From contig NZ_CP010868.1 in NCBI RefSeq assembly GCF_000875775.1, positions 1,189,707 to 1,253,706 on the forward strand: a stretch of DNA of 64,000 nucleotides, read 5' to 3'. How positions within the stretch are numbered: position 1 is the stretch's first letter; each line of letters starts with the position of its first letter. Below, piece after piece: positions 59,127-62,354 of the stretch. The notes beneath the pieces were generated by a model. That model was given only the letters and a program-made list of their open reading frames with translations, was not told the DNA's origin and made no database searches. This stretch comes from Nitrosopumilus piranensis (GTDB taxonomy: Archaea; Thermoproteota; Nitrososphaeria; Nitrososphaerales; Nitrosopumilaceae). The translations under genes and the position numbers were made by a program.

Positions 59127-59384
59127 ATGGCAGCTAAACGAAAAGCAGCTCCAAAGAGAAAAGCAGCTCCAAAGAGAAAAGCAGCTCCAAAGAGAAAAGC
59201 AGCTCCAAAGAGAAAAGCAGCTCCAAAGAGAAAAGCAGCTCCAAAGAGAAAAGCAGCTCCAAAGAGAAAAGCAGCTCCAAAGAGAAAAGCAGCTCCAAAG
59301 AGAAAAGCAGCTCCAAAGAGAAAAGCAGCTCCAAAGAGAAAAGCAGCTCCAAAGAGAAAAGCAGCTCCAAAGAGAAGACGATAA
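59127..59384 (+). CDS. Basic repeat protein, 13 copies of RKAAPK
   Basis: An 85-residue protein: MAAK, then 13 perfect copies of RKAAPK, then RRR. It is purely Lys, Arg, Ala and Pro apart from the initiator and carries a very high positive charge; it resembles the C-terminal tail of histone H1 and PAAK repeats of AlgP/Hc proteins. It probably binds DNA, RNA or polyphosphate. It is related in composition to the protein at 30388-30639 but is pure repeat. ATG at 59127. The next gene, on the other strand, is the collagen-like protein. Confidence 0.75.
   Translation: MAAKRKAAPKRKAAPKRKAAPKRKAAPKRKAAPKRKAAPKRKAAPKRKAAPKRKAAPKRKAAPKRKAAPKRKAAPKRKAAPKRRR
59139..59372 (+). repeat. 13 tandem 18-bp repeats inside the basic protein gene
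   Basis: The unit AGAAAAGCAGCTCCAAAG is repeated 13 times head to tail with no base change except the first codon (CGA instead of AGA). No spacer is present. Exact copies at DNA level suggest recent expansion by slippage or recombination, so the copy number should vary between strains. Confidence 0.95.
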
Positions 59385-59498: not shown

Positions 59499-61133
59499 TT
59501 AGTAAAGATAACTCATTAGTTTGATTTGGTCTTCAGTGGAAATTACATTTTTCTCAGTTAATATTTCCAATAATTCTTTGAATAATGCTTTTTGTTCAGA
59601 AGACATTCCACCTGCAGGACCTTTTTCTCCTGGTGGACCGGGAGGACCTCTTGGACCTGGGGGACCTACCGGGCCTTGTTCTCCACGTGGACCTTGTTCT
59701 CCAATAGAACCAATCGGACCTGTTGGGCCACGTTCACCTTGAGGACCTTGAATTCCTTGTGGGCCTTGTGGACCTTTTTCTCCCGATGGACCTGTTGGAC
59801 CACGTTCACCTTGAGAACCTTGTGGACCTACCGGGCCTTTGTCACCGGGTGGACCCGTAGGACCAGTTAATCCTTTTTCTCCTGTGGGTCCCTGTGAACC
59901 TTTTTCTCCTTTTTCTCCCTGAGGACCAGGAACTCCTGTAAGACCTTTTGCGCCAGCTGGACCTTGTGGACCTTGTGGACCTTTTTCTCCAATTGGTCCT
60001 TCAGTTCCTCTAACACCTTTTTCTCCAATTGGTCCTGGAGGACCTACCGGGCCTTTGTCACCGGGTGGACCCGTAGGACCAGTTAATCCTTTATCACCAA
60101 GCGGACCTGGAGGACCAAACGGACCTTTTTCTCCTGCGGGACCTATTGGACCTTTTTCTCCAATTGGTCCTGGCGGTCCTTGAATTCCTTTTTCACCTTG
60201 AACACCTGTTTGCCCTGTTGGACCTTTTTCTCCGGGTGTTCCAATTGGTCCAGTTAATCCTTTTTCTCCGGGAGGACCTTGGGGACCTTTGTCACCTTTT
60301 TCTCCTGGAGAACCTCTTAATCCAGATAAACCTTTATCGCCAGGTGGACCTGTTGGACCTTTTTCTCCTTTATCACCAGTAGGTCCTTTTAATCCAGTAG
60401 GACCTTTATCACCAATTGGTCCTGTTGGGCCTTTGTCACCTTTGTCACCGGGTGGACCAGGTACACCTTTGTCACCTTTATCACCTTTATCACCAGTAAT
60501 TCCTTTTTCTCCAGTTAGTCCTTTATCACCTGAAATTCCTTTGTCACCTGGGGGACCTTTGTCACCAGTAGGTCCTTTGTCACCTGGTGGACCTTGAGGA
60601 CCTTCAGGTCCTTTGTCACCTGGTGGACCTATTTGTCCAGGTGGACCTGGGGGACCTTTGTCACCTGGTGGACCTTGAGGACCAGTGGCACCTTTGTCAC
60701 CGGGTGGACCGGTTACACTAGAACTTGTTTTAGTAGAACGTTTTTGTTTAGGAATTTCAGAAATTGTTTTAGTTTCAGTAGATGTTTGAGTAGATGTGGT
60801 TGATTTTGATTTTGATAAAGGAACATCAAAAACAGAATACAATGATGAAAATAGATCAGTTACAACTATCCATATTGTATCTAATTCTAATACAGAAGAA
60901 GGAATTGGGTTTTCAGGGGTGCCAATTGTTTCAGAGAATACTCCATCTTTTACTCTAAGATGAAAATTACCACGCCAAAGAGAAGTAAACTGTTTTGACT
61001 TTATTTGTTCATCAGTAGGTCTACTTCCAGTAATTGAGATTTGAGTCTCATATACACCTGATTGCTTGAATGGTGCCTGGCCTTGGATTTCTAATTTAGA
61101 CTGAGATGACACAATCGTTTGTTTATACTTCAA
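59499..61133 (-). CDS. Collagen-like protein
   Basis: A 544-residue protein. Residues 1-141 form an N-terminal domain: a beta-type module ([51 protein letters not shown]) as found in bacterial surface and tail proteins, then a Ser/Thr/Lys linker. Residues 142-507 are about 122 uninterrupted Gly-X-Y triplets, rich in GPPGDKG, GEKG and GPTG; Lys-Gly-Asp/Glu pairs would stabilise a triple helix without hydroxyproline. Residues 509-544 are an amphipathic helical end ([14 protein letters not shown]). A TAA stop lies just upstream in frame, so no signal peptide is possible. TTG start, with a TATA box about 26 bases upstream. Confidence 0.9.
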
Positions 61134-61214
61134 GTATTTCTGTATTTAGATCGCATAAATTGATTCTAAATCAAATTATTTTCAGGCTCGCGGAGGATAG
61201 TATTTATCTAGATA

Positions 61215-62354
61215 ATGAGGCATTTTGAGCTAGTGAAGAAACCATTCGGAAAAAAATCAGAGGAAAAAGAAGATGAGACTAGTTTAGAAAAAAAGAAAGA
61301 AGAGACCGCACTAGTCGATGTTGACTATAATCGCAAGAAACTGTTCAAGAAAGGGGTCAACTTGATGGCAGATGAAAAACTCGAAGAGGCCATCGTAGTC
61401 TTTGAGCAGGCCCTGAGAATAGATCCGGACAATGTAGAGACATTGCTAAAATTAGGATATGCAAGATTTCACATTGATGATCATAATGAAGCATTAAAGG
61501 TATATGATAGAATTTTAGATATTGATGTAACAAATCCAGAAGCTTGGAATCTTAAGGGATTGGTTCATTATGAACAAAAAAATTATTCAAAAGCTTTGGA
61601 TTCAGTTGAAAAGGCAATTGAGACTGACCCAACATATGGAATGGCATGGTACAACAAAGCATGTTTCTTATCATTACTAAATCAAGTTCCAGAATCACTA
61701 GAAGCATTAAAGCGCTCAATTGAAATTGATGTAAAGAATGCAAGAAAATCAATTAGAGACAAAGATTTTGTTAATGTTAGAATCGAAGAGGGATTCAAAA
61801 GAATTCAAGAAGTTGTAGTTTTAGAATCAATTAGACAAGGATACCACACATTGGGTTCAATTGTATGGACAACATTTCTAGATAAAAAAGATGCAGAAAC
61901 TGCATTAAGAAAATTATTAGAAAAAGGATTGATTGTTCAAAATGAAAAAAGAGATGGTCTAAGTAAAATTCCAATATATGATCTTGCACCAAATGTTGCA
62001 GAAAAAATGGGTAAAGAAAAGAAAGGTTTGTTTGGAATTACAAGAAAGAGATTACCAAAACCAGTAAAGAATCTCAAAGAACTAAGCCAAGCAATTCAAG
62101 ATGCAAGAGAAGCAATTGAGGAAGAGAATGCAGAAAAAGCAATTGAGATATTTGATGAGTTTGTAGACCCTAAAAAATCAGGAGAACAGATGATTGAAAA
62201 TTTCTTTGATGAACACAGAGAAATAAGATTGTGGAAAATAAGACTAAAAGATAGAGGCGATGATTACATTGCTGAAAACAAAGAAAAGATGTTAATGTTA
62301 TTTGGTAATGTCGAAGTTACAATCACAAAAAAACTTAGAAACGAAATTTCTTAA
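61215..62354 (+). CDS. TPR protein with C-terminal winged-helix region
   Basis: A 379-residue protein. Residues about 40-170 hold three to four TPR units (EEAIVVFEQALRIDP, NEALKVYDRILDIDV, SKALDSVEKAIETDP, PESLEALKRSIEIDV). A region at about 215-260 resembles a winged helix (HTLGSIVWTTFLDKKDAETALRKLLEKGLI). The C-terminus is helical and charged. It is the largest TPR protein in the window and probably a scaffold. Convergent with the sulfurtransferase: stops are adjacent. Confidence 0.75.
   Translation: MRHFELVKKPFGKKSEEKEDETSLEKKKEETALVDVDYNRKKLFKKGVNLMADEKLEEAIVVFEQALRIDPDNVETLLKLGYARFHIDDHNEALKVYDRILDIDVTNPEAWNLKGLVHYEQKNYSKALDSVEKAIETDPTYGMAWYNKACFLSLLNQVPESLEALKRSIEIDVKNARKSIRDKDFVNVRIEEGFKRIQEVVVLESIRQGYHTLGSIVWTTFLDKKDAETALRKLLEKGLIVQNEKRDGLSKIPIYDLAPNVAEKMGKEKKGLFGITRKRLPKPVKNLKELSQAIQDAREAIEEENAEKAIEIFDEFVDPKKSGEQMIENFFDEHREIRLWKIRLKDRGDDYIAENKEKMLMLFGNVEVTITKKLRNEIS

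Follow-up and report, generated by a model that had tools for sequence, protein, structure and literature searches.

A core collagen-like gene of the Nitrosopumilaceae and its predicted three-part product

Several described systems resemble the collagen-like gene reported here, which lies on the minus strand of a 64,000-nucleotide window (the whole stretch of DNA analyzed) from the ammonia-oxidizing archaeon Nitrosopumilus piranensis. Like the collagen repeat proteins of PF01391, its product carries a long uninterrupted Gly-X-Y tract, and this tract aligns with those of the streptococcal proteins SclA and SclB (NF038330 and NF038329). The Bacillus exosporium collagen BclA is also a collagen-like stalk protein that is made in the cytoplasm without a classical Sec signal. 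In the mosaic adhesive trimer (MAT) fibres of Bdellovibrio, a long trimeric stalk adjoins an N-terminal domain rich in beta structure (PMC10769870), an arrangement that the archaeal protein would share if it forms a trimer. We found that the gene belongs to the core gene set of the family Nitrosopumilaceae as a whole and that its product has a head, an unbroken collagen tract and a cap, with no signal peptide. The initial annotation, made from the window's sequence alone, described a real gene but overlooked its family-wide occurrence. The finding is wider than first described, and some of the details hold more loosely. No study of this collagen-like protein was found in the literature.

Gene start and protein architecture

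The host genome is a single contig of 1,713,078 bp, and the window covers its positions 1189707-1253706. The open reading frame first reported at 59499-61133 (-) is present. The gene and its parts, in window coordinates, are as follows:

59499-61112 (-): collagen-like gene, 537 amino acids, with a GTG start at 61112 and the stop codon at 59499-59501
61132-61147 (-): conserved box AAATACAGAAATACTT, seen when upstream DNA of 20 species was aligned; its end lies 19 nt ahead of the start codon
60819-61112 (-): N-terminal head, residues 1-98, predicted Ig-like beta-sandwich (AlphaFold2 model and invariant G, P, F, W, H and D columns)
60711-60818 (-): basic low-complexity linker, residues 99-134, isoelectric point about 10, differing between species
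59604-60710 (-): Gly-X-Y tract, residues 135-503, 123 triplets without interruption (PF01391 match and sequence)
59901-59990 (-): conserved collagen island, mean X/Y identity 0.86 in 72 members
59721-59810 (-): conserved collagen island, mean X/Y identity 0.84
59622-59657 (-): conserved GPP-containing stretch of 12 residues adjoining the cap, two GPP triplets retained in 94-99% of members
59502-59603 (-): C-terminal cap, residues 504-537, two predicted helices (AlphaFold2 predicted local distance difference test, pLDDT, 94.4, and invariant columns)

To locate the start codon, upstream DNA was aligned across the 20 species. The column at 61112 is GTG or ATG in nearly all of them, and in the two species where the start is shifted an ATG lies nearby. 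The TTG at 61133, at first taken as the start, falls within the conserved box at 61132-61147. Because of this and the GTG/ATG column, we place the gene start at GTG 61112. The box resembles a promoter and may be a TATA-type element, which would leave a very short 5′ leader. Together, the box and the start column rule out a signal peptide overlooked upstream of the start, including one hidden by a frameshift near 61134-61160, as the initial annotation had considered.

The Gly-X-Y tract matches the Pfam Collagen family far above its cut-off (E = 1.5e-61; 204 bits compared to 27.2). It is unbroken, as first described, and the exact count is 123 triplets rather than about 122, the last being G-G-M. 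The most common triplets are GDK (19), GPP (18), GEK (15), and GPT (11). "Lys-Gly-Asp/Glu repeats" was a loose description, since KGD occurs only 4 times and KGE only 2 times in the tract, and the charged triplets are mainly G-D-K and G-E-K. Among 72 complete relatives, the tract ranges from 84 to 185 triplets, with a mode of 124 and 34 members at 120-126, and none is interrupted (0/72). Since all 72 are uninterrupted, the tract is not due to chance. One apparent break (L179) was a run of N and not a true interruption. In the last 60 triplets, which are the best anchored, the glycine codons of 993 pairs show 26,069 silent differences and 0 replacements; these pairs are related rather than independent, and the tracts were chosen as unbroken runs, so the counts describe constraint and are not a test statistic.

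Both conserved islands fall within the C-terminal half, and the N-terminal half of the tract is more variable among species. This pattern is what C-terminal nucleation combined with binding sites would be expected to produce, and the GPRGPPGPP stretch by the cap is a candidate site for triple-helix nucleation. If the triple helix forms, the protein would probably be a homotrimeric rod with a calculated length of 105 nm (123 x 3 x 0.286 nm). The initial estimate of about 100 nm agrees with this value. The comparison with a third of the cell diameter needs adjusting, as the rod would span about a third to half of a cell 0.2-0.3 μm wide, the diameter of the relative Nitrosotenuis uzonensis (PMC8692354). 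Alternatively, the tract could remain disordered and flexible at growth temperature, without a triple helix, and act as a spacer or a scaffold for binding. This would be in line with prolyl hydroxylation not being expected and with the triple helix being read from sequence. However, strict glycine periodicity in tracts of every length among the 72 members, the G-P-P content, the GDK and GEK triplets and the helical cap are all consistent with a triple helix being selected for, and we think a disordered tract improbable.

The AlphaFold2 model of the head was built from 64 natural sequences and has a mean pLDDT of 90.9 and a predicted template modelling score of 0.83, with strands at residues 7-12, 19-28, 46-55, 58-63, 79-86, and 92-98. 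Neither the head nor the cap has a meaningful sequence match in Pfam, NCBIfam, PHROG or the PDB. A Foldseek structure search with the head returned nothing below 1e-3, and a viral library gave the same outcome. With VIA-align, the best Z score was 6.9, for the ligand-binding region of SgrA, tied with unrelated domains of Brr2, Nir2, and DUF3823. Since there is no PDB profile match, Foldseek is null and the VIA-align scores are tied, we claim only a predicted Ig-like beta-sandwich for the head. The globular N-domain described initially does appear as a beta-rich head, while its assignment to a bacterial surface or tail type is weakly supported, with no sequence match in these databases.

The cap is modeled as two helices, in agreement with the helical cap first proposed. 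It is restricted to this protein within the order (none elsewhere at E 1e-3), and weak matches elsewhere in its own genome resemble chance. The cap may be a trimerization and registration domain. The N. piranensis protein contains no cysteine. The three-part architecture was borne out, and we hold the structural reading of the protein with high confidence.

Distribution and genomic neighbourhood

The head was detected in 206 of 250 Nitrosopumilaceae genomes, in 122 of the 131 good ones and in all 22 genera, nearly always as a single copy. Searches of 201 genomes from the order and 300 from the phylum gave the head profile no match outside the family. Deep genera also retain the gene, and among their genomes are one of 1.2 Mb in a single contig and some of only 0.8 Mb. 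Nine family genomes without the head were examined; four also lack the neighbouring tetratricopeptide repeat (TPR) gene at the cut-off, and in another four the TPR gene is cut at, or ends near, a contig end. Eight of these nine absences look like assembly gaps, and only one genome (G028) keeps the sequence upstream of the TPR gene yet has no collagen gene. In a further sample of the order, a strong collagen match was present in 24/24 family genomes compared to 9/97 outside the family. Therefore, the initial statement that such proteins are rare in archaea is true of the sampled order outside the Nitrosopumilaceae but not inside the family.

The recurring gene order is a HAD phosphatase, a TGS GTPase, a zinc-ribbon protein, the collagen gene, the divergent TPR gene, a rhodanese and a nitrite/sulfite reductase-like gene. 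The neighbour named above is:

61215-62354 (+): TPR-repeat protein, divergent neighbour, next to the collagen gene at 96 of 100 partly overlapping loci

Matches of the collagen region to PHROG tail-fibre families would suit a domesticated or resident fibre of viral or phage-tail type. These matches are confined to the triplets. The homology search of the head against phage tail and surface proteins, proposed initially, found no PHROG relative, and neither head nor cap has a relative in phages or IMG/VR at a meaningful E-value. The gene is single copy and conserved throughout the family, down to the 0.8-Mb genomes, and what surrounds it in about 100 loci is a fixed housekeeping neighbourhood rather than a block of viral or mobile genes. 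A viral origin of this kind is very unlikely.

The TPR gene is also found in further families of ammonia oxidizers, where it has no collagen neighbour, and its product is conserved across several of these archaeal families. This occurrence weakens the case for a functional link between the collagen and TPR proteins. Because of it, we infer that the collagen gene arose beside an older TPR gene at the base of the Nitrosopumilaceae. Convergent with the collagen gene, at 59127-59384 (+), is a gene for an 85-aa protein with 13 perfect 18-bp repeats (AAPKRK) that resembles a histone H1 tail; most relatives have a K/A/P/R-rich protein with varying repeats at this position. Elsewhere, the DnaK of N. 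piranensis (L039, 5313-7208 (-)) has five C-terminal GADGQQ repeats, about ten Gly-X-Y triplets, with a Collagen match below threshold.

Cellular location and proposed role

A signal peptide is absent from every member examined. Over the first 60 residues, peak hydropathy has a median of 0.47 in 95 members, compared to 3.39 for a relative's collagen that carries a signal peptide. Together with the start alignment, this extends the initial observation that a signal peptide is absent to the entire family. With signal peptides lacking in all examined members and N-terminal hydropathy low in these 95, the simplest reading is that the protein is cytoplasmic. No export genes adjoin the collagen gene in the conserved neighbourhood. 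An N-glycosylation sequon is absent in 58 of the 95 members and cysteine in 84 of the 95, which is weak evidence on location. We put residence in the cytoplasm at somewhat better than even odds and consider it more likely than export by a non-Sec route.

The protein could instead work outside the cell as an adhesin or a fibre of the envelope, released through a non-Sec pathway or by lysis or vesicles, with the head as an anchor or ligand binder and the stalk passing through or above the S-layer. The Ig-like fold and its top structural neighbour, the SgrA ligand-binding region (tied, as noted, with unrelated folds), would suit such a protein. The head profile also aligned with a consensus of bacterial fibre N-domains at 92% in hhalign (score 39.8, with 150 shuffles reaching no more than 17.6), a consensus composed by hand and not built from real members. 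This consensus gives a match below the cut-off to NF053851 (Bdello_MAT_N), the model for the N-domain of Bdellovibrio MAT fibres. The same model matched none of 19 archaeal heads, and its whole-genome match lies elsewhere (E 0.07). Plasmids, phages and IMG/VR yielded no bacterial members of a similar N-domain with the hand-composed bait. We treat a distant kinship of the head with bacterial fibre N-domains as a lead, not as membership.

In 2026, an up-regulated "LPXTG-anchored collagen-like adhesin" was reported in the proteome of Nitrosotenuis chungbukensis MY2 (PMC13037477). MY2 has three collagen-like proteins, and the main text of that report does not allow the adhesin to be assigned to any one of them. 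The term is the name of the NCBIfam model NF038329, which the family proteins match below its cut-off and through their triplets alone. It is plausible that archaeal proteins of this kind have been misnamed after the NF038330 and NF038329 models. The two further collagen-like proteins of MY2 (L172 and L168) are of a GATGPQG-triplet type. The one on L172 has a signal peptide, yet the examined members of the family described here, which occurs in the same lineage, have none. With no export genes adjacent either, we consider the adhesin less likely than not, though it is the strongest of the alternatives.

Our overall explanation, to which we give a probability of roughly 0.5, is a homotrimeric collagen-like rod that is made in the cytoplasm, probably kept there, and used as a spacer or tether. 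Three two-helix caps would join and fix the register of the chains. The almost invariant GPRGPPGPP beside the cap would then start the triple helix, which would zip toward the N-termini into a stiff stalk, and three Ig-like heads would be gathered at its far end on short basic linkers. Such a rod could serve as a stiff spacer or tether that links whatever the heads bind to whatever the cap or the islands bind. The tether function is a guess guided by this anatomy.

Several points weigh against this explanation. Bacterial collagen-like stalks are mostly surface or virion proteins, and the distant resemblance of the head, through the hand-composed consensus, is to exported domains. No proteomic localization was found in the literature. 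The variation in triplet number among genera speaks against a strict ruler. In one lineage (G041/L187), the ortholog has a stop and frame breaks within the tract, due to either sequencing error or decay.

In the ocean, few organisms are more abundant than the Nitrosopumilaceae, which are central to nitrification. That practically the whole family carries a conserved, single-copy collagen gene at the same site points to an unrecognized structural component of these cells. A protein kept inside would give a cellular lineage a core collagen of the cytoplasm; an exported one would imply a non-Sec route for very long rods in these archaea. Tentatively, and with less confidence than we give the overall explanation, all Nitrosopumilaceae, including those with streamlined and 0.8-Mb genomes, may have a collagen dedicated to the cell interior, forming a trimeric rod of about 100 nm whose role is that of a cytoskeletal tether or spacer in cells only 0.2-0.3 μm wide.

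Comparison with described fibre proteins

The known systems each differ from the archaeal protein. BclA, which becomes located on spores, trimerizes through a beta jelly-roll at its C-terminus; in contrast, the archaeal cap is predicted as two helices rather than a jelly-roll, and the host does not sporulate. MAT fibres have a signal peptide, beta-helical stalks and variable tips. Compared to SclA and SclB, the archaeal protein has a different head and scores 235.8 bits against a cut-off of 325 (186-214 for orthologs), and it has neither the Sec signal peptide nor the C-terminal LPXTG of the Scl2/SclB type (NF038329). Among the collagen repeat proteins of PF01391, it is set apart by a head and cap outside known families, by having no signal peptide and by its status as a core gene.
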